In this document: positions 15,951-55,853 of the stretch, one piece after another
Numbering within the stretch: the stretch's first letter is position 1
Layout: every line of letters starts with the position of its first letter
Source: a virus
Strand: one strand, 5' to 3'
DNA length: 64,000 bases
IMG/VR virus record: IMGVR_UViG_3300035698_025127
Coordinates: 1 to 64,000 of that record
Position numbers and translations under genes: made by a program
Notes under the pieces: generated by a model
Told to the model about the DNA's origin: nothing
The model's input: the letters and a program-made list of their open reading frames with translations, nothing else
Databases searched by the model: none

Positions 15951-16419
15951 CAAAAAATTATATTGTTATCTTGACGATGTTGTTATAACAACACCAAACG
16001 TTTTTTGCCAAAAGAGTACTAAACTTAGACCGGTTTTAGATATTGAATCGGTATGTTATATAGGAGATTGTTTTATGCCAGCAAATGAGTATAATTTAGA
16101 TATGGTTAGAGGCATGTATAAGGAATTCGCTTTTGTGCTTGAAAGCCAACGTGATATTTCAGATGCCGTAAATATTGTAATGACGCTAAAAAGGCATGTA
16201 AATGACGAGGATAGTGCAATTATATTACAAAAGTCATATGATTCCACAAAATCGGACTTGGCTGCCGGGCACATTGTCTTTAAATTTGTTAGTTCCGATA
16301 CAAAAAGTTTGGATTTGCGTACGTATTCTTATGACGTACAACTTGAAATGACTTCTGAAGAAATCTATCAAGTTGCCGTTGGCAATCTTGCTCTACAGAA
16401 AAACATTTATAGGCGATAA
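15940..16419 (+). CDS. Baseplate upper protein-like (Ig-like) structural protein
   Basis: The 159 residues include a segment MYKEFAFVLESQRDISDAV...IVMTLKRH (about residues 57-90) and a closing part with SDTKSLDLRTYSYDVQLE...VAVGNLALQKNI (about 120-157). This 'D..s.a..i..tlK ... G...F...sDT..L....Y.YDvql......G.l.l' layout is typical of BppU-type N-terminal domains of phage baseplate and fibre-anchor proteins. It overlaps the giant gene by 11 bases and the sigma-factor gene by one, so the three are probably co-translated. The exact place in the virion is unknown. Confidence 0.65.
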   Translation: MSCSKKLYCYLDDVVITTPNVFCQKSTKLRPVLDIESVCYIGDCFMPANEYNLDMVRGMYKEFAFVLESQRDISDAVNIVMTLKRHVNDEDSAIILQKSYDSTKSDLAAGHIVFKFVSSDTKSLDLRTYSYDVQLEMTSEEIYQVAVGNLALQKNIYRR

Positions 16420-17003
16420 TGGACTACTTTGATAATAAGACGATAACGGCTGCAGTATTGCAGTATCAAGCAACTGGAAATTACAGAATTTTGGAAGAAT
16501 GCGCTGATTCATTTAGGAAACTTGTGGTCGGCATTATACATACGCATAAGTTTTATGCGTATCAGAGCATAGTATATGATGATCTGGTGCAGGAAGGTTT
16601 AGTAGCAGTTTTAGAAGCTATTAGTAAATATAATGATCAAACGAAATCGAGTCTATTTTCTTATTTGTCTTTGGCTGTTAAATATACACTCATAGATTAT
16701 ACAAAGAAAAATGGTAGAGAAACTAATCATTTAGGTACTTCCGAAGATTATTCTTGTAATACAGATTATTTAGATGAACTTGTTGGTTGCATTAACAAAA
16801 TTGGGGATATTAGATTATCATTTCCGAGACCATTACATGATCTTATGGAAGTTGTATTTGATCTAATTGACAATCTTATTGACCGTGGCTATTCTATTCC
16901 GTTTGGTGATCTTATTGTGTATTTAATGCACGAAACAAATGCATCGCGTTTGCAAATTGAAAATATCATGAAACATATTCGTACGAAAGCATATATTAAA
17001 TAA
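16419..17003 (+). CDS. gp55: Late-transcription sigma factor (T4 gp55-like, sigma-70 region 2)
   Basis: The product is 194 residues. Residues 52-97 match sigma-70 region 2: YDDLVQEGLVAVLEAISKY followed by FSYLSLAVKYTLIDYTKK, that is, the core-binding helix and the -10 recognition helix. There is no convincing region 4, which agrees with T4 gp55 (185 aa), a minimal sigma that directs host RNA polymerase to late promoters with co-activator help. Its position at the end of a structural operon and before the packaging genes fits. It overlaps its neighbours at both ends (TAATG). A gp55 role is inferred from domain content and context; a generic phage sigma factor is the alternative. Confidence 0.8.
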   Translation: MDYFDNKTITAAVLQYQATGNYRILEECADSFRKLVVGIIHTHKFYAYQSIVYDDLVQEGLVAVLEAISKYNDQTKSSLFSYLSLAVKYTLIDYTKKNGRETNHLGTSEDYSCNTDYLDELVGCINKIGDIRLSFPRPLHDLMEVVFDLIDNLIDRGYSIPFGDLIVYLMHETNASRLQIENIMKHIRTKAYIK

Positions 17004-17668: not shown

Positions 17669-17692
17669 TAGCACATTTTTTTCAAATGTCAA
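17665..17692 (-). promoter_or_regulatory. Sigma70-type promoter for the minus-strand membrane gene
   Basis: On the minus strand, TTGACA (17692-17687) is separated by 16 bp from TATACT (17670-17665). This is close to the vegetative consensus and very unlike the late-gene surroundings. It points away from the packaging genes towards 17620. Confidence 0.75.
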
Positions 17693-22518: not shown

Positions 22519-23292
22519 ATGCCTAATAACTTTAAAAATTTACCATATATTGATTACCTGAAAAGAGCAAAGAAAATTGAAGACATGGATTCAATGAAAG
22601 ATATTTTTGAAGCTCTTGGACCTAAAGAGTCTATTAAAACGATGAATAACTCTGGTGAAATTGATATTGAAATACCCACTGTGCCTTTAAGCGTACTTAT
22701 GGGAAAATCCAAGAAAAGAAAAAACGTATGGGTATCAAAAAAAGATATCAAAAAAACGTCAGAAATGGATGATGCAACATTTGACAAATACTGGAATAAA
22801 GCAAAGCAGCATAATTCTCGGCATCGTCATTATGAGTTTGGTAGAAATATCAATGGTGATGAAATTGTAACTATGGGTAAGCGTAAAACCTCTGTTAAGG
22901 AGATGCTTGATAACAAGTTATTAGATGAACCCATTGATATGGTTCAGGTGGGTGTTTATGAAAGACTTGGAACTTCCAATGTCGATTTAGTATCTGGACT
23001 TGGAAAAAACAATAGAGGTTATCTTTTCGAGGACGAAACTGATACTAGTTCTATGCTTAATGGTGTTGTTGTGGATGCAAAGTGGGTAGATGGCTCGCTT
23101 AACATTAACATAAATGTTAATGGAGAAACAATGTTCTTTTCTCTTACAAAAGATCAGTCTTCAATGTTGGTGCTTAGTGTTGACGATTTGGAAAATAATG
23201 CTAATATGTTAGTACAGAAAACACTATATTTTATGCCTGATTATAGTGACGGTGTAAATAATATTGGGATGAAACAGGTAGTCGTTAAATAA
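22519..23292 (+). CDS. Hypothetical protein between terminase and hub
   Basis: The product is 257 residues with a charged N-terminal region rich in K/E/M, a basic central part (KAKQHNSRHRHYEFGR, about residues 93-108) and a C-terminal beta domain (about 180-257). The ribosome site GGAGG lies 6 bases before the ATG. No family was recognised. Location between TerL and a hub-like gene suggests a late structural or assembly role. Confidence 0.65.
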   Translation: MPNNFKNLPYIDYLKRAKKIEDMDSMKDIFEALGPKESIKTMNNSGEIDIEIPTVPLSVLMGKSKKRKNVWVSKKDIKKTSEMDDATFDKYWNKAKQHNSRHRHYEFGRNINGDEIVTMGKRKTSVKEMLDNKLLDEPIDMVQVGVYERLGTSNVDLVSGLGKNNRGYLFEDETDTSSMLNGVVVDAKWVDGSLNININVNGETMFFSLTKDQSSMLVLSVDDLENNANMLVQKTLYFMPDYSDGVNNIGMKQVVVK

Positions 23293-39855: not shown

Positions 39856-42800
39856 ATGACAACATTACTAAGCCCCACAGTTGTTACTAGTGAAACTGAC
39901 TTGTCTTTTGTGGCACAGTCAATTTCGACAAGTATTGCTGGAATTGTTGGTGCTGCAAGTAAAGGTGCAGTAAATAAAAGGATATACTTGTCATCACAAG
40001 ATGACGTTATCATTAAATTGGGTAAACCACTATTGACAGATTACGGTGTTCAAACCGCTTCTCTGTTTATGAAACAGTCAAGCAACGGTTGGTATAATCG
40101 TATTGCTTCGCTACGCGGAAATGATCCTGTGGCAACTGCAAATACTGATACGAGGGCTCTGTTAACTCAAACCTCGCTTACAGCATTTGTAGCACCATCA
40201 GATATTATTGCTCTGGCTGGCGGAAGTTCTCAGAATCTTAGGTTGCGTTTTGATGATACTAATGATATTACAATAACTTTTACAACTGCTATTGTAACTT
40301 CTTTGGTGCGCTCAACAATGCTTGACACTATGATTGCGTTGACTGGTTGGTTGGACGGCGTACTAAGTTTAAATGGGACTGCTGAACCACGCTACGGGTT
40401 TACCGGCTATACTCAACTTGGTGATGGTTCTTACGTTCTGACAATTCAGAGCGAATTAAAATCCGGATTAAGCAAAATTGAAGTAATGGTCCCAACTGGA
40501 ACCGATGCTGCAAGTTATTTTGGCTGGACTTCCGGTGTTACCAGTGAAACCGGTACGCGTTCGATTGTATTGAATACCAATTTGACGTCCGCTGTCGTGA
40601 CTTCTTTGGCACAAGGCGTAAGTGGATATAACCTGGGAACATCTGCAACATCGACATCTGTAAATTCTGCTACATATAACCTTGGTGTTTTAGCAGATGG
40701 TAGTCTTGATGTAAATAATATGGGCGCATCCCCTAATGCATATTCTTTTGTATCAGTTTTGGAAAGCAATACGACTACTACAATGAATCTTGACAGTGAT
40801 GGAATTCACGCACAGGCTCAAGCTGCACCGTACGCATTTAATCCGGTTGTGCAAATTGTTGTTGACGGATATACAACTTCTATTGAAATTCCATTAACAA
40901 CATGGACAATTGGTGCTATTACAAATGCTAATATGCAAGATTTTGCAACTGCTATTAATACAGCTACTCCTTCTGGGTTGGGCGATATTGCATTCTACAA
41001 TACTGCAACTAAGAAAATGTATTTGCAATCTCCGGGCAAAAGCGTTGGCTATACTTATATTAGTGTACCGTTGGAACAATCTGATACGGTAGCAGGAAAT
41101 GCTGCTATGGCTATTAGAGCAATGAATTTTTTAGGGTTTGATTTTCAAGACGTTAAGGTCCAAAATCAAATAACTATTGAAACTGAAACAAGTTCTGAAA
41201 CAATTTCGTTTGATTATACTACTGTACATTCTTACGGATTGTCTCCGGCATCATTAACCACAGCACAAGTTGTTAGTCTTATTAATGCACAATTCGGATC
41301 TACTATTGCAAGTATTGATAGCGGATTAAATATTTCTCTGGCTAACGACTATCGTGGTATTGACGGGTTTGTTAAGGCAAGTGGATATCAAACAAGTAAA
41401 TTGGCTATTGATTCTACTGCCTTTGACTATACTAGCAGTTGGTATTTACCTTCAAGTTCTCCGATTCGTTTAATCGGCGCCGAAACTGCTACTGCGGCTG
41501 GGTTAAATAATACATATCTAAAATGCAGTTTTGGAACGGATTGGGCAATTGTGCGTATTAATAATACTACATATGCATCTGATCCTGTGGCAATTGGATC
41601 TGCAAAACTAGATGTAGAGGCAACTTCTTTTGCTGCAACTCCTACTCAAATTAATGCATTTAAAATTGCTTTGGCCGCTGTATTATTCGGGCATGTTATA
41701 AGTTCTCCGGGCGATGGATTTGTTATTGGCGAATGGACTGTTGGAACATTAGTAGCAGCAGGAACCGAATTGAGAGTTTATAACGGTGGTGGTCTTACTG
41801 CTGGACGAGTAAGAGTTGTTGATAGTAATGATAATACTGCAACTACTTATCCAGCTTCTCATGAAGGTAATATTTCATATGTTGTAACAGCATTGCCTGC
41901 ACCAGATACAACAACAGTAACACTTCGGGATGCCGGTGGAACAAATGTTCTTACTGTGACATCATTACATGATGATAGAGAACTTCACTTATATGTAGAT
42001 AATACGCCAGCATTGACGTTTGCCGGTAAAACAATGACCGGATTCGCAAGCTCTGGTAGTTATGCTACTTGGCTACAAAAATCATCAAATACTGTAACAG
42101 GTGATGAAACAGCCGAATTGACAATTGGCGCAGGCGGCGATTTATCTTCTGTAGGTCAACTTTCAGTTAGTACAACAGATGCTTCATGGGCATTAGTATT
42201 AGACTTATTGTTTGATGATGGTGCCGGAACTGATTATTCTGCATTGGTTGCTGTTGTGCCAAGCGGAACTACGGCATTTACAACTTCAATTAAGGGTGGA
42301 CATAGTATAGCAGTTGCGGAATGCCCTGTTGACGTTATTACTCTTGCACAGGGTAATGGATATGATGTTACATGGACTGCTGGCACCGGTTCTTATGCAT
42401 ATGTTAATACTGCAACGGGTACTTTAGATTTTGCTCTTGATGCACTAAAATTAAATGGTCAGGATTTACCTTCTGCTGGTGCTGGCGGCAAAGCCAAGGG
42501 TTATTTGATTGGTAATGCCGACATTGAATATATTTTCCGTCCATCAACTGTTACACCGGGCGCATATGCAGCTCAGTGGCAGAATGGTAGAATTACAACT
42601 TCTCGTGTAGCTTATAACGATATAACTTCAACATTTGTTGCCACTGCTCGTTCGTTCTTCCCGAATGATGATTGGGGTGGCGGCTACAATAGGTTTGCTG
42701 TTGTCGTAGATGATGATTATACCGTAGATATTGATTTTAATGATTATACATTTGTTGATCAAAGTGCTGCAACCGCAAGTGAAACTGCCGATGCTCTTAA

Positions 42801-44568
42801 TGCTCGTGCAAAACTCATTAATAGTACGCTAAATGGTTTTGCCACAGCAGTAAGCAATAAGATTGTATTAACAAGTCCTACAAAAGGCGTTTCAAGTCAG
42901 CTTCGCGGAGTTATTGATAATACCGCATTAGATTTTTCTGCTATTGTTAGTACACCTGCAACTGGTAGTGGTTATCCCAATCTATCCTTTAAGGTGGATG
43001 GCGGGACTACAAATACTATTGATTTTACTGACTATGCAGGTATTTTGATTGCAGATCAAAGTGCGGCTACTGCTGATGAAGTCGTTGCTTCCATTCTCAG
43101 AGGAACATCTCTAAGTAGCAGTCTTGTCTATACAGACGGCGTTGGTGTTGCAACTACAGTAAATGTCAAGAGTCTTGTTACCGGCACAAGTGGTACCGTG
43201 GAAATTCTGACAGCTAATCAGGCACTGGGTGACGAGTTTGGTATTCAAACTGTTTATACTGGGACCCAAACTGAAGTTGCTGCCGGCGTTGCTTTTGCAG
43301 TAAGTCCTGGTACTTGGGCAAATGCTGACGAGGATGCTCTGAAAATTAAATTTACTGACGAAAATCCGCTGTTCTTTGCGCCTAATACTTCTCGTGTAGA
43401 TATTTATAGTGGTTCTACTATTTTAGCATCATATCGCGAAGTTTCTCCTGATCCTGATGCTGATGGCAGCCATGGAACAACCGGAGAGGGAACATTCATT
43501 GAGGACGAACTTGGTAATAGCAATGACGTTGCCAACGGAACTAATCCTAATCCATATTTCGCGTTTGACCTTGACGAAGATTTAACTACAGACGTCATTG
43601 ATTATAATGGTGGAAAATTTAAGTCTGGAACTTATTCGTTAAGTGGCGGAGCTGATGGTATCAATGAATTAACTGGAAGTGATTTTGTTGGTGTTTCTTA
43701 TGATTCCACATATGGTGGACCTACAGGAATTCAGAATTTTGCTGATAAGCATTCATCATTTATTAACTTCCTGGTTGCCCCAGGCCGTTCAGATAGTGCT
43801 GTTATTCAGTCATTATTCTCTGTAGCTGAAGAACGCGGCGATTGTTTGGCCCTTGTGGATCCGCCTATCTCTCTGAGACCAGAACAAGTAGTGGATTGGC
43901 ACAATGGCCTAGGTTATGGTAATAGTGTGGCATTTAACACAAGTTACGCAGCATTATACGGTACTTGGTTCTATCATAGTGATCCGTATAATAACACGAA
44001 TATTTATTTACCACCTAGTGCATATCTGCTAAAGCAGTATGCATATAGCGATTCCATTTCGGAACCATGGTTTGCAGTAGCAGGTGATACGCGCGGTAAA
44101 GTTACCGGTGCTATTGGGGTTGAATATTCACCAAACGAGGGTGAACGCGACTTAATGTACGGCAATGGAAATGCAGTGAATCCGATTGTTAATTTCGTAC
44201 AAAGCGGAATTAAAATCTGGGGCCAGAAAACCCTTTCACGCACAGAGTCTTCATTGAATCGTATCAATGTGAGGCGTTTATTCTTGTTTGCTCGTAGAAC
44301 CGTAGAATTAGCCTCACAAGTTATATTGTTTGAACCTAATGATGCGTTGACCCGTAAGAAATTGGTGGAAATAATTGAAGGTGCTATGTCCGATATTCTA
44401 TCAAGACGCGGTATTACAAGATTCCAGGTTGAAGACAAGACTGATGCTTTCCTGATTAATCAGAATAGAATCAAGATTGTTGTGTTTGTTGAACCACAAC
44501 AAACTGCTGAATTCATTGAGATTCCGTTTATTGTAACCGGTAGCGGACAAGCATTTATCGAAGGTTAA
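39856..44568 (+). CDS. gp18: Tail sheath protein, exceptionally large (1570 aa)
   Basis: Both ends match contractile sheath proteins. The N-terminus begins with LLSPTVVTSETDLSFVAQS...GIVGAASKGAVNKR (about 4-46), and the C-terminus carries the core: SLRPEQVVDWHNG (about 1335-1348), YLPPSAYLLKQYAYSD (about 1376-1392), NRINVRRLFLFARRTVE (about 1472-1490) and FVEPQQTAEFIEI. T4 gp18 is 659 aa; here about 1100 residues of beta domains are inserted (residues about 105-1240), several of the (A/S)xxVVxxINAxx type seen in the protein at 8877. The insertion would project from the sheath surface. The GGAGG ribosome site is canonical. A fusion of sheath with decoration domains is the reading. Confidence 0.92.
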   Translation: MTTLLSPTVVTSETDLSFVAQSISTSIAGIVGAASKGAVNKRIYLSSQDDVIIKLGKPLLTDYGVQTASLFMKQSSNGWYNRIASLRGNDPVATANTDTRALLTQTSLTAFVAPSDIIALAGGSSQNLRLRFDDTNDITITFTTAIVTSLVRSTMLDTMIALTGWLDGVLSLNGTAEPRYGFTGYTQLGDGSYVLTIQSELKSGLSKIEVMVPTGTDAASYFGWTSGVTSETGTRSIVLNTNLTSAVVTSLAQGVSGYNLGTSATSTSVNSATYNLGVLADGSLDVNNMGASPNAYSFVSVLESNTTTTMNLDSDGIHAQAQAAPYAFNPVVQIVVDGYTTSIEIPLTTWTIGAITNANMQDFATAINTATPSGLGDIAFYNTATKKMYLQSPGKSVGYTYISVPLEQSDTVAGNAAMAIRAMNFLGFDFQDVKVQNQITIETETSSETISFDYTTVHSYGLSPASLTTAQVVSLINAQFGSTIASIDSGLNISLANDYRGIDGFVKASGYQTSKLAIDSTAFDYTSSWYLPSSSPIRLIGAETATAAGLNNTYLKCSFGTDWAIVRINNTTYASDPVAIGSAKLDVEATSFAATPTQINAFKIALAAVLFGHVISSPGDGFVIGEWTVGTLVAAGTELRVYNGGGLTAGRVRVVDSNDNTATTYPASHEGNISYVVTALPAPDTTTVTLRDAGGTNVLTVTSLHDDRELHLYVDNTPALTFAGKTMTGFASSGSYATWLQKSSNTVTGDETAELTIGAGGDLSSVGQLSVSTTDASWALVLDLLFDDGAGTDYSALVAVVPSGTTAFTTSIKGGHSIAVAECPVDVITLAQGNGYDVTWTAGTGSYAYVNTATGTLDFALDALKLNGQDLPSAGAGGKAKGYLIGNADIEYIFRPSTVTPGAYAAQWQNGRITTSRVAYNDITSTFVATARSFFPNDDWGGGYNRFAVVVDDDYTVDIDFNDYTFVDQSAATASETADALNARAKLINSTLNGFATAVSNKIVLTSPTKGVSSQLRGVIDNTALDFSAIVSTPATGSGYPNLSFKVDGGTTNTIDFTDYAGILIADQSAATADEVVASILRGTSLSSSLVYTDGVGVATTVNVKSLVTGTSGTVEILTANQALGDEFGIQTVYTGTQTEVAAGVAFAVSPGTWANADEDALKIKFTDENPLFFAPNTSRVDIYSGSTILASYREVSPDPDADGSHGTTGEGTFIEDELGNSNDVANGTNPNPYFAFDLDEDLTTDVIDYNGGKFKSGTYSLSGGADGINELTGSDFVGVSYDSTYGGPTGIQNFADKHSSFINFLVAPGRSDSAVIQSLFSVAEERGDCLALVDPPISLRPEQVVDWHNGLGYGNSVAFNTSYAALYGTWFYHSDPYNNTNIYLPPSAYLLKQYAYSDSISEPWFAVAGDTRGKVTGAIGVEYSPNEGERDLMYGNGNAVNPIVNFVQSGIKIWGQKTLSRTESSLNRINVRRLFLFARRTVELASQVILFEPNDALTRKKLVEIIEGAMSDILSRRGITRFQVEDKTDAFLINQNRIKIVVFVEPQQTAEFIEIPFIVTGSGQAFIEG

Positions 44569-45279: not shown

Positions 45280-45322
45280 AAGCACAGCACTTAGAAAAAG
45301 TTTAAGTGCTGTGCTTTTCTTT
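45280..45322 (+). terminator. Rho-independent terminator after the tail tube gene
   Basis: AAGCACAGCACTTA (45280-45293) pairs perfectly with TAAGTGCTGTGCTT (45303-45316) around a 9-base loop, then TTCTTTG. A 14-bp stem makes it strong. Confidence 0.9.
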
Positions 45323-45339: not shown

Positions 45340-45639
45340 ATGTCAAAAATAACAGAATTTAGTACATTTTCAGAAAACAAAATTGACGCAAAGACAATTA
45401 GGGCAGTCGGCAATAAGTTGGGTATTAATTGGAATAAAATCCCATTTTCAGAATTTGAAGCGGGATATTATGTAGAATTAGAACACGGATTACAAGACCC
45501 CGAAACAAATGCAACAAATGACGATCCTGTTATGACAGCCAAAATTGCATGGGTTCATCTAAAGGAATTTTCAGACTATTATACTCGTCTCAAGAAAATG
45601 GAACGAGAAGGCAAGGAACAAAAAAATAGGGAACATTAA
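45340..45639 (+). CDS. DUF5661-type protein
   Basis: The product is 99 residues. FSEFEAGYYVELEHGLQDPETNATNDDPVMTAKIAWVHLKEFSDYYTRLKKME (about 39-90) is the signature of the DUF5661 family, common in phages and found alone or fused. Function is unknown. The N-terminus MSKITEFSTFSEN has the short amphipathic form seen in capsid-targeting peptides of T4-type internal proteins. No convincing ribosome site precedes the ATG (ACGCGAG). The stop falls just after a run of seven A (45620-45626), where the next frame begins. Confidence 0.75.
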   Translation: MSKITEFSTFSENKIDAKTIRAVGNKLGINWNKIPFSEFEAGYYVELEHGLQDPETNATNDDPVMTAKIAWVHLKEFSDYYTRLKKMEREGKEQKNREH

Positions 45640-46159
45640 GAATTTTATTAGTGATATAATTAGTGAAGGCAAAAAACCTCGAAAATTTGATGTTGGTGAT
45701 ATTGTTAGAATTAAATTATATGATGATGGCCCACTATCAAAACAACCGCTAGGCAAAGTTTTTAGTATAGTCGGCTATGATAATTATACCGGAAAATGGA
45801 AATATAAAGTAAAAGAACAGGGATCCGGAGTACGTAAAACCTGGTCTGAAAACAATTTAATTTTAGTAAAGAAAGTCAAAGAGGGTGTCAATAAAGTAGC
45901 CGCCCCTAAAGATAAAATCACAAAACAAGTTAAAGATTTAAGTACAAGTTTAGATTATTTTATAAAAAACGAGTTAGTAAAAAATGCAGGCAATCCTTCA
46001 AAATATTATGCAAATATAGCCGATATTTTGGGTATTTTTGTACGTATATTAAAAATAACTAAAGACACAGATATCATAAAACATATTGAAAGTACAATAA
46101 AAATTTTACAAAATCGTAGCGCTTCATATCGCAATCATACTGATACATGGGAATGGTAA
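45626..46159 (+). CDS. Hypothetical protein without an ATG (non-standard start or frameshift fusion)
   Basis: An open frame of about 177 codons runs from the A-run at 45620-45626 to TAA at 46157-46159, with no ATG, GTG or TTG near its natural beginning. Residues after the junction read KNFISDIISEGKKP, then a KOW/SH3-like beta part (KFDVGDIVRIKLYDDGP...), a basic linker and a helical C-terminal domain. The coordinate given is the first ATA, 7 bases after AAGGAA; an ATT at 45635 is the alternative. Read-through from the DUF5661 gene by a +1 (or -2) shift or by polymerase slippage on seven A would fuse the two. A sequencing error is also possible. Confidence 0.55.
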   Translation: MGNIKNFISDIISEGKKPRKFDVGDIVRIKLYDDGPLSKQPLGKVFSIVGYDNYTGKWKYKVKEQGSGVRKTWSENNLILVKKVKEGVNKVAAPKDKITKQVKDLSTSLDYFIKNELVKNAGNPSKYYANIADILGIFVRILKITKDTDIIKHIESTIKILQNRSASYRNHTDTWEW

Positions 46160-46162
46160 AAC

Positions 46163-46191
46163 TTGACAAATATCTAAAAGTATGTTATAGT
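46163..46191 (+). promoter_or_regulatory. Sigma70-type promoter for the structured RNA
   Basis: TTGACA (46163-46168), a 17-bp spacer and TATAGT (46186-46191). It lies 4 bp after the stop of the previous gene, and transcription would start near 46198. Confidence 0.85.
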
Positions 46192-46197
46192 TCTATT

Positions 46198-46481
46198 TAG
46201 GCAACTGTCTTGTTTAAATTTGTTCCTTGTCAGCGATAAGGAGCCTACAAAGGTTTTTCGGTGTACCCGCCCAGCGAAACATCGGTTTTTGTTTTATCAT
46301 GGGTTCGCCAACTTTTCCGTTGTGATAAAATGTAAGTGTCAAAAGGCGTATAACGACACATTTCCTATGTACCACGATGTACAAAAGGAAACAGCCTCGT
46401 CATCGGCGGGGCCAGCCCCACCACGGATAGTATCTGTGGCCCTACCCCCCTTCGTTCGAAAGTTGGGGGGTTTCTTTTTTT
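46198..46481 (+). ncRNA. Structured non-coding RNA candidate (about 285 nt)
   Basis: Between a consensus promoter and a strong terminator, the strand folds into a series of local hairpins. H1: GTTCCTT (46222-46228)/AAGGAGC (46238-46244). H2: CGGTGT (46259-46264)/ACATCG (46279-46284). H3: TTTTATCA (46292-46299)/TGATAAAA (46323-46330), with inner CAAC/GTTG. H4: GTGTC/GACAC (46336-46359). H5: TTTCCT-TGTAC/GTACA-AGGAAA (46361-46391). H6: GGGG/CCCC (46405-46422). H7: CCACGGA/TCTGTGG (46421-46439), and the terminator. A longer-range alternative pairs GGGCCA (46409) with TGGCCC (46437). It is visibly more GC-rich than its surroundings. No ribosome site was seen, and the only long frame opens with TTG. 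It matches no RNA class that I recognise (not tRNA, tmRNA or 6S). Confidence 0.75.
46444..46481 (+). terminator. Strong terminator closing the structured RNA
   Basis: ACCCCCC (46444-46450) pairs with GGGGGGT (46465-46471) around a 14-base loop with an internal TTC/GAA. TTTCTTTTTTTC follows. Confidence 0.88.
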
Positions 46482-46482
46482 C

Positions 46483-46511
46483 TTGACAAAACGGCCGTCT
46501 TGTGTTACTAT
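46483..46511 (+). promoter_or_regulatory. Sigma70-type promoter for the DUF3307 operon
   Basis: TTGACA (46483-46488), a 17-bp spacer and TACTAT (46506-46511), starting in the last T residues of the terminator. The ribosome site AAGGAGA (46520-46526) and the ATG at 46533 follow. Confidence 0.85.
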
Positions 46512-46532: not shown

Positions 46533-46994
46533 ATGATTTATTTTGTAATGTTTGTCGTTGCGGCCACGGTACACTTTATAGTAGACTTTTTGTTTCAGAC
46601 ACACGAAACGGCAGTCAACAAGAAACAAAATAATTCGGTGTTATTCAGACATTGCTCATGGTATGCGGTTTGGGTTAGCTTGGCATTTAGTGCGGCCCTT
46701 TTTAAGTTTGGCAATTTATATTATACCGTTGGAGTGGCAGCAGTTTTCGGAGCCCTTTTGATATCCCATTATTACATTGACAACGGGTTTTTAATGATCC
46801 TGTGGGCAAAATATATCCATAAAAATCCACGCTTTGAGGGTGTAAAAAGTATGGATGAAGGTAATAAGGCATTATTCGAAGACTGTCTCGAAAATCCGTT
46901 TAGACCTACAATTTATATCGCCGTAGACCAGATTATGCATATTAGTGTAATCGCAATTATTTCTTTAGTTATATGGGGTATTGCAAATGTCTAA
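46533..46994 (+). CDS. DUF3307-family membrane protein
   Basis: The product is 153 residues, starting at the ATG with AAGGAGA 6 bases upstream. The pattern AATVHFIVDFLFQTHETAVNKKQN...LFRHCSWYAVW (about 10-48) matches DUF3307: a membrane helix with H...DF..Q, K and a second H. The family has three to four helices; here they lie near 2-22, 45-62, 67-90 and 130-150. HYYIDNGF (about 83) is another conserved point. Function is unknown, and the membrane is the expected site. It follows a strong host-type promoter, so expression is probably early. Confidence 0.8.
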   Translation: MIYFVMFVVAATVHFIVDFLFQTHETAVNKKQNNSVLFRHCSWYAVWVSLAFSAALFKFGNLYYTVGVAAVFGALLISHYYIDNGFLMILWAKYIHKNPRFEGVKSMDEGNKALFEDCLENPFRPTIYIAVDQIMHISVIAIISLVIWGIANV

Positions 46995-54273: not shown

Positions 54274-54853
54274 CGAGACATACAAAAGGACTATGTTTTG
54301 TACAGATCAAGACGAACTCCATATGATAATGGAATCATTAATGGATTTAGCAGAAGAAAATGCGGACAACGACTTATATATTACTGAAATATATAAAGCA
54401 GTTTTAAATTTGCTAAATAATGAATGGTTAAAGCCGCAAGACTTTTTACACATTGTCGGTACACTCCCTACTATTTTATATGATGCATTAGAACAGGATA
54501 TACAGTCTCTTGAGGTCATTAAAGTGGTATTTGAGCATTATCCGCAATACTTATTTAACAATGAATATGAGTTAAATAGTTCTTTATTGTATTTAATGAT
54601 GATGTATAACTTGACAGACGAACAAAAGTATGCTATAATACGAGATAGCTTAGAAAATTATGTTAATTCGCGGCACCTTTTAGCAGTCTTCAGGAAATAT
54701 AACGAAGTACCGAGAGCACTTTACGAAAGTATTAAGGCCTTTTGTAATACTGTCCCGGACAAGAAACTAAAAAGCAAACTAATTAAGGCTTTTCGAAATG
54801 TTAATATTACAGAATGCAGAGACACGAGAGAGGATTATAAGACTTTTCATTGA
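54251..54853 (+). CDS. Hypothetical protein carrying an internal promoter
   Basis: The product is 200 residues, almost entirely helical (for example EVIKVVFEHYPQYLFNNEYELNSSLLYLMMMY). No conserved motif was seen. The codons around residues 122-130 contain a full-consensus promoter (54611-54639). It overlaps the deoxyribosyltransferase-like gene by 23 bases and the primase by 56 bases. Start context is weak. Function is unknown. Confidence 0.6.
   Translation: MKMILLNNETYKRTMFCTDQDELHMIMESLMDLAEENADNDLYITEIYKAVLNLLNNEWLKPQDFLHIVGTLPTILYDALEQDIQSLEVIKVVFEHYPQYLFNNEYELNSSLLYLMMMYNLTDEQKYAIIRDSLENYVNSRHLLAVFRKYNEVPRALYESIKAFCNTVPDKKLKSKLIKAFRNVNITECRDTREDYKTFH
54611..54639 (+). promoter_or_regulatory. 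Perfect-consensus sigma70 promoter inside the gene at 54251
   Basis: TTGACA (54611-54616), 17-bp spacer, TATAAT (54634-54639): both hexamers exact. The expected start near 54646 is about 150 bp before the primase ATG at 54798. Confidence 0.8.
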
Positions 54854-55853
54854 TAAGCACTTCTCCGACATTCGATATGCTAATAATACAAGTGGGCGGT
54901 GGATTAATGTTCCAAGTCCAGAAAAGCAAAGAGATACTGATTATCGTCTCGGATTTAATATAGATGCTGGATATGTACATGATTTTACAATTTCAGAAAC
55001 ATGGTCATTCAAAGACTTTGTAGCAAGATATCTTGACATTCACCATAGTGAGGCTGAGGGTGTCATATTTGATATGGCAATTAAAGAAAAAATTATTTCA
55101 CTAAATAATATGCCAAGAAAAAAAGAAGTGGAACCTGAAGTTGCCCCACCGACTAAGCACGTAAAAATATTACCAGAAATATCAATGCCACCACATACAT
55201 TATATGTTGATATGTCAAACAAAAATGGCATTTTGGGTGCAGCTGTTTCGTATCTTGAAGGGCGAGGTATTACTCAGGAATTAGTTGATAAATTCGAAAT
55301 TCGCTATTGTATAGGAGGTCGAGATGGAGGACGAATAATTTTCCCTATTAGAGATATTAATGGTAAAATTGTCATGTATCAGGGGCGAGCGATTAGTGAC
55401 GATTTAACACCTAAATATTTATTTTCTCAGAATGGTAACAAGAAACAAGTAGTATATAATCTATATAATGTTCCAGAAAATCAGCAAATTATTATTTGTG
55501 AGGGTATATTTGATGTGATTGCCGCACATAAGGCAGGATATCATGCTGTAGCAACTTTTGGCAATTCTTTATCTTTTTTTCATCATACGAAGATAAGCAT
55601 AAGGAAACCTAGTAAACTAATCTTAGCTTACGATGTAGATGCAGCAGGTGTTTTAGGTCTAGTGAACGCAAGTAATCTGTTGGATGATTATTTTGTAATT
55701 AATTACCCTAATAATATTGAAGATTTTGGTGATGCGAATGTTGATGAAATACACAGTCTGGTTAAAAATATTGTGCCGTGGACTTCTGGAACATTTTTGC
55801 AATTTTTGCTAAAAGCTGCTTTATTGGAGCGTGAAAAGAAAAATGTCTTGTGA
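54798..55853 (+). CDS. DNA primase with TOPRIM domain
   Basis: The product is 351 residues. The TOPRIM core has IIICEGIFDVIAAHKAG (Glu235) and LILAYDVDAAG (Asp279, Asp281). The preceding part (about 150-215) contains the RNA-polymerase-domain features GGRIIFPIRDINGKIVMYQGRAI and PKYLFSQNG, as in DnaG and T4 gp61. The N-terminal domain (about 30-75, with GRWINVPSPE and HDF) has the general CHC2 arrangement but lacks the cysteines. It would make primers for lagging strands with the helicase at 58733. It overlaps the upstream gene by 56 bases, with AAGG 7 bases before the ATG. Confidence 0.9.
   Translation: MLILQNAETRERIIRLFIDKHFSDIRYANNTSGRWINVPSPEKQRDTDYRLGFNIDAGYVHDFTISETWSFKDFVARYLDIHHSEAEGVIFDMAIKEKIISLNNMPRKKEVEPEVAPPTKHVKILPEISMPPHTLYVDMSNKNGILGAAVSYLEGRGITQELVDKFEIRYCIGGRDGGRIIFPIRDINGKIVMYQGRAISDDLTPKYLFSQNGNKKQVVYNLYNVPENQQIIICEGIFDVIAAHKAGYHAVATFGNSLSFFHHTKISIRKPSKLILAYDVDAAGVLGLVNASNLLDDYFVINYPNNIEDFGDANVDEIHSLVKNIVPWTSGTFLQFLLKAALLEREKKNVL

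Follow-up and report, generated by a model that had tools for sequence, protein, structure and literature searches.

A stretch of 64,000 nucleotides (nt), referred to here as the window, was analysed; it is the first 64 kilobases (kb) of a viral contig of 119,932 bases (IMG/VR record IMGVR_UViG_3300035698_025127), and contig-wide scans took in the whole of about 120 kb. Judged by its gene content (terminase, T4-type capsid, tail tube, ThyX and a gene resembling late sigma factors), the contig is a divergent T4-like myovirus. The tail tube gene, an open reading frame (ORF) of the DUF5661 family and one more ORF are followed by an island without annotated genes, and then by a DUF3307 membrane protein, small unknowns, ThyX and a protein that, from its sequence, is putatively DNA polymerase-like. 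The island is very likely an RNA gene. The following features were identified at the locus:

46163 to 46191, plus strand: promoter P1, TTGACA-17-TATAGT with TG before the -10 element, a member of a set of 16 sites
46198 to 46480, plus strand: predicted non-coding RNA of about 283 nt, with its putative start 7 nt past the -10 element and its end in the T tract
46222 to 46244, plus strand: hairpin H1, 10 base pairs (bp), triloop AGC, mean pair probability 0.97
46259 to 46330, plus strand: ambiguous middle domain with competing folds; alternative simple hairpins at 46259-46284 and 46292-46330
46336 to 46359, plus strand: hairpin H4, 5 bp, 14-nt loop, pair probability 0.85
46361 to 46391, plus strand: hairpin H5, 6+5 bp with an internal loop, pair probability 0.90-0.98
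46394 to 46412, plus strand: hairpin H6, 8 bp, triloop AUC, pair probability 0.91
46421 to 46439, plus strand: hairpin H7, 8 bp, triloop AGU, pair probability 0.96
46444 to 46482, plus strand: intrinsic terminator, a C6/G6 stem and then a T tract running into the -35 element of P2
46483 to 46511, plus strand: promoter P2 of the next operon, TTGACA-17-TACTAT with TG
46533 to 46994, plus strand: DUF3307 membrane protein, first gene of the next operon, with the ribosome site AAGGAG and its start codon 21 nt past the -10 element of P2

The original prediction, made from the letters alone, had described a consensus promoter, a strong terminator and a second promoter that starts in the T tract and drives the next operon, and all three were found. 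P1 scored 11/12 against the consensus with an extended -10 element (TG), the terminator stem ACCCCCC/GGGGGGU occupies 46444-46471 ahead of the T tract, and P2, which adjoins this tract, scored 10/12 plus TG. The RNA of about 285 nt agrees with the size predicted here, while the interval 46163-46511 given for it also includes both promoters.

P1 belongs to a set that was found by its pattern. TTGACA-N13..15-TG-N-TATA-T occurred at 16 sites in the whole contig, compared with 0.45 expected from shuffles (maximum 2), a 35-fold excess, and 12 of the 16 sites were mostly outside genes despite a coding share of 93% in this genome. These near-identical sites comprise P1, P2, a single site among the structural genes (17.7 kb), another at 54.6 kb and a further twelve between 77 and 114 kb, for example 77079-77107, 98615-98643, 103667-103695 and 112184-112211 (contig coordinates). 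A ribosome site and an ORF followed within 18-49 nt for 12 of the 16 members, P2 among them. The member at 54611 is inside a gene, and the minus-strand members at 17692 and 82615 failed the automatic ribosome-site/ORF test, yet an ORF start is present shortly downstream of each. P1 was the sole member opening onto a long gene-less gap, with no ribosome-site ORF for 341 nt. Membership of the set makes P1 very probably genuine as a promoter, and the gap behind it makes its predicted transcript very probably something other than a messenger RNA (mRNA). Looking within a phage's own promoter set for the member that no gene follows is a simple route to such RNAs that needs no homologue.

Expression early in infection is likely. 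A gene resembling late sigma factors was found at 16419-17003, which suggests that another promoter type serves the late genes, and the host sigma-70 RNA polymerase would transcribe the island RNA early in infection. The earlier proposal of a dedicated early phage non-coding RNA was supported by the place of P1 in an early-type set that otherwise drives genes, and by the coding analysis below.

Several early leaders were observed to have the words TTGATTGACAA(A/G)CTA or CATAATGAGTTGTTTA in common. At 54611-54639, a promoter with a 12/12 consensus score and TG lies within a gene, 158 nt ahead of a primase-like ORF (54798-55853). The related phage contig G001 (IMGVR 3300018080_000115) has a promoter set of its own with another spacer word, TTGACA-NNNTGTAAC...TACAAT, for example at 23002, 30409, 34304 and 111710.

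Could the island instead encode a small protein, or simply form the 3' end of the late operon, with its untranslated sequence and terminator? The frame 46220-46486, which starts with TTG, is open for 88 codons, and the island does come after the tail genes. However, the codon score of this frame was -0.11 per codon, lower than that of every real gene tested (median +0.18), while the neighbouring ORFs scored +0.10 to +0.29. Inside the island no ribosome site was found ahead of any start codon, the frame enters the terminator, and no credible protein family match was obtained for its translation. By these measures the TTG frame is non-coding, and the original statement that only this frame crosses the island and that no ribosome site is present was confirmed. 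Furthermore, P1, very probably a real promoter by the evidence above, lies within the supposed 3' region. We therefore regard a protein or a mere 3' region as very improbable. The island terminator may also halt transcription coming from the late tail genes.

The tandem order of P1, terminator and P2 directly ahead of the DUF3307 gene would also fit a leader or attenuator, in which transcripts from P1 would stop at the terminator except when some signal or factor permits read-through into the operon. The tandem layout alone says little, because a terminator stands directly ahead of a promoter at 86.4 kb too, without such an RNA. Since P2 belongs fully to the set and lies 21 nt from an ORF with a ribosome site, read-through is unneeded; the next operon is independent of the island, having its own promoter and ribosome site. 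The C6/G6 stem was dominant (probability 0.97), and by eye no strong alternative pairing was seen that would free it. An attenuator was accordingly judged improbable. The island thus has its own promoter and its own terminator, serves no adjacent ORF and has no coding capacity, as expected of a stand-alone unit.

The predicted RNA is rich in stems. The island contains seven stems of 6 bp or more that do not overlap, where dinucleotide shuffles averaged 3.4 (p 0.007); six were counted without the terminator (p 0.003, dinucleotide shuffles). Pair probabilities were 0.4-0.6 across the middle (46246-46330), which might adopt an H-type pseudoknot (around 46260-46330). Its modelled stems, S1 (46260-46268/46301-46309) and S2 (about 46292-46300/46322-46330), would be stacked end to end; such a candidate had p 0.016 in shuffles, and one as good was present in 10 of 493 genome windows (2%). 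The GC content of the island was 47-48%, compared with 32% upstream and 35% downstream, as had been noted originally; this is 11 points over the genome mean and is reached by about 2% of genome windows. Raised GC is a common signature of genes for structured RNAs when the genome is AT-rich.

A non-coding stretch with a promoter at the boundary of structural and replication genes could also be a cis-acting DNA element, for example a replication origin with a promoter-made primer RNA, for which T4 ori and ColE1 RNA II are models. However, the cumulative GC skew had no turning point near 46.3 kb (its maximum was at 93.3 kb), and a strong terminator and GC-rich stems would be odd in an unwinding element. 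This explanation has very little probability in our view.

The only other copies found of the island were identical ones, in IMG/VR contigs 3300022890_001308 and 3300023257_000225 of the same phage. Rfam, named as a check in the original prediction, was searched at gathering and permissive thresholds and gave no family: no match was obtained at gathering score, GOLLD and ROOL included, and just two weak matches, far under the cut-offs, were obtained at E<=5. In the phage collection, the wider region had no match at E <= 0.01 and the island had none above chance. Covariance models of both island halves found nothing in the fetched relatives, although these searches were run in fragments and are not proof of absence. 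No transfer RNA (tRNA) or transfer-messenger RNA was found in the phage contig by ARAGORN or Rfam. These empty searches agree with the earlier statement that the RNA is of no recognised class. As a separate matter, the 17-nt hairpin core gave eight matches in viral contigs beyond its own phage, apparently in coding sequence and with no wider similarity, and these were set aside as chance matches; a 21-nt version of the core had no match in genome contigs.

The phage itself is divergent: its terminase was only 35% identical to the best match among phages, and no close phage was present among database records. A host search through the capsid gave no match in genome contigs. Queries with the tail tube, DUF3307 and ThyX proteins for the same locus led to no contigs other than those of the identical population and of a single syntenic phage, G001 (the same as G002), and the contigs of two capsid relatives (G003 and G005, 60-61% identical) stop short of the locus. 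G001 is the nearest syntenic relative, with a tube 53% and a capsid 63% identical. Its sheath-tube and ThyX-polymerase blocks are kept, but they are separated by approximately 13 kb of unrelated genes, where no DUF3307 gene and no copy of the island were found. Because the tube-ThyX interval of G001 holds unrelated genes, the RNA looks accessory, and it appears to occupy a variable slot flanked by the structural core on one side and the replication core on the other. The DUF3307 protein next to it falls in the PHROG category moron, auxiliary metabolic gene and host takeover. The G001 islands behind promoters with longer leaders (24181 and 67246) contained no comparable RNA, and 67246 opens directly into an open frame.

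Virulent phages make abundant non-coding RNAs of unknown function, and the island adds a candidate. The virulent phage ICP1 has such RNAs of about 800 nt and about 300 nt (PMC7567579), and phage K has long non-coding RNAs, one of which, lnc001, has its own early promoter (PMC9241854). Like the island, these are stand-alone non-coding units in ORF-less gaps of virulent phages, with functions unknown. They were seen by RNA sequencing, while the island RNA is predicted only, and the phage K RNAs adjoin tRNA genes, while the contig of the island has no tRNA. GOLLD and ROOL are also phage-borne, highly structured and of unknown function (PMC12286853); at about 600-800 nt or more, often near tRNA islands, they differ from an RNA of about 283 nt with no Rfam match. 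By these comparisons the island RNA is unrelated in sequence to known phage non-coding RNAs and is of a kind already known from ICP1 and phage K.

The T4 stable RNAs C and D are non-tRNA stable RNAs of unknown function that are shorter and lie within a tRNA cluster. Both they and the island RNA are non-tRNA RNAs of T4-like phages, and they were set apart from it by description, as the island has no tRNA cluster. The RNA of a type III toxin-antitoxin system (ToxI) was considered and rejected: the island has no tandem repeats, and the next gene is DUF3307 rather than of the ToxN family.

Racr solitary-repeat RNAs are small phage RNAs with their own promoter (PMC10651486), a trait that the island shares. 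An RNA anti-CRISPR that mimics a solitary repeat of clustered regularly interspaced short palindromic repeats (CRISPR) was weighed, as a 12-column gapped resemblance to the type I-E repeat was found at about 46266-46276. The likeness to six repeat types was not above chance (best p 0.1-0.17), and the island contains no repeated unit and is far longer than one repeat. Of all the explanations weighed, we give this one the least credence.

A trans-acting antisense small RNA was a stronger contender. The stretches left open between the stems (for example 46203-46221, 46270-46291 and the H4 loop) could pair with host mRNAs and alter their translation or decay, and phage-encoded regulatory small RNAs are documented (review PMC12197685). 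However, pairing to 160 phage translation starts was no better than in shuffles (best p 0.9, mean p 0.3), which speaks against antisense action on the phage's own genes, and the length and number of stems are high for a simple pairing RNA. We consider antisense action unlikely.

On balance, we think it probable that the island is a stand-alone gene for an early structured non-coding RNA of about 283 nt, with action in trans by its fold as our preferred reading. Action on a host component in trans through structure is the most economical proposal because the RNA would be early, has its own promoter and terminator, is independent of the operon, lies in an accessory slot and shows no excess self-pairing. 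The folded RNA might bind or titrate a host protein or ribonucleoprotein, in host takeover or anti-defence. Action through the fold rather than through antisense pairing is put forward tentatively, as slightly short of an even chance, and a role in anti-defence in particular is doubtful. More doubtful still is that the RNA represents a new class of phage RNA, in which triloop hairpins form a compact chain around an H-type pseudoknot and which, produced as soon as infection begins, serves as an RNA decoy or inhibitor to disable a host defence or takeover target.

Several points weigh against the stand-alone RNA gene. The RNA is a prediction from sequence, no diverged homologue was found among phages, plasmids, E. 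coli genomes and related viral contigs, and there was no specific pointer to any single protein partner. The folding energy departed only modestly from expectation (z -3.0 with the terminator and -2.0 without it), and at least 30 genome windows folded better than the island in a GC-corrected scan of the whole contig, so folding by itself would not pick out the island. The original description as hairpin-packed, with at least seven hairpins, thus stands for the number of stems, while the energy is moderate and the middle ambiguous. Overall, what had been observed in the letters was confirmed and the interpretation was supported in part, the proposed regulator, decoy and defence roles being candidates only. 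Given a host, the compact size, clean borders and accessory slot make the island a tractable case for deletion and pull-down.

Other observations were made nearby and elsewhere in the contig. At 45280-45316, past the tail tube gene, a perfect 16-bp hairpin is followed by T-rich sequence and resembles a terminator. At 45340-46159, the DUF5661 ORF (end 45639) is followed by an overlapping frame with a coding signal of +0.27 per codon, which has no ATG, GTG or TTG until 46028; a seven-A run at the overlap would be compatible with +1 frameshifting, slippage of the polymerase or a non-standard start codon. The protein in the tail-sheath position (39856-44568) is 1570 amino acids long and had no Pfam match, and it shares about 46% identity with a protein of comparable length in G001. 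An RtcB RNA ligase gene on the minus strand (contig 96270-97219) looks broken: an intact ORF covers its N-terminal part, and the part that follows comes from a different stretch, which is itself interrupted by stops.
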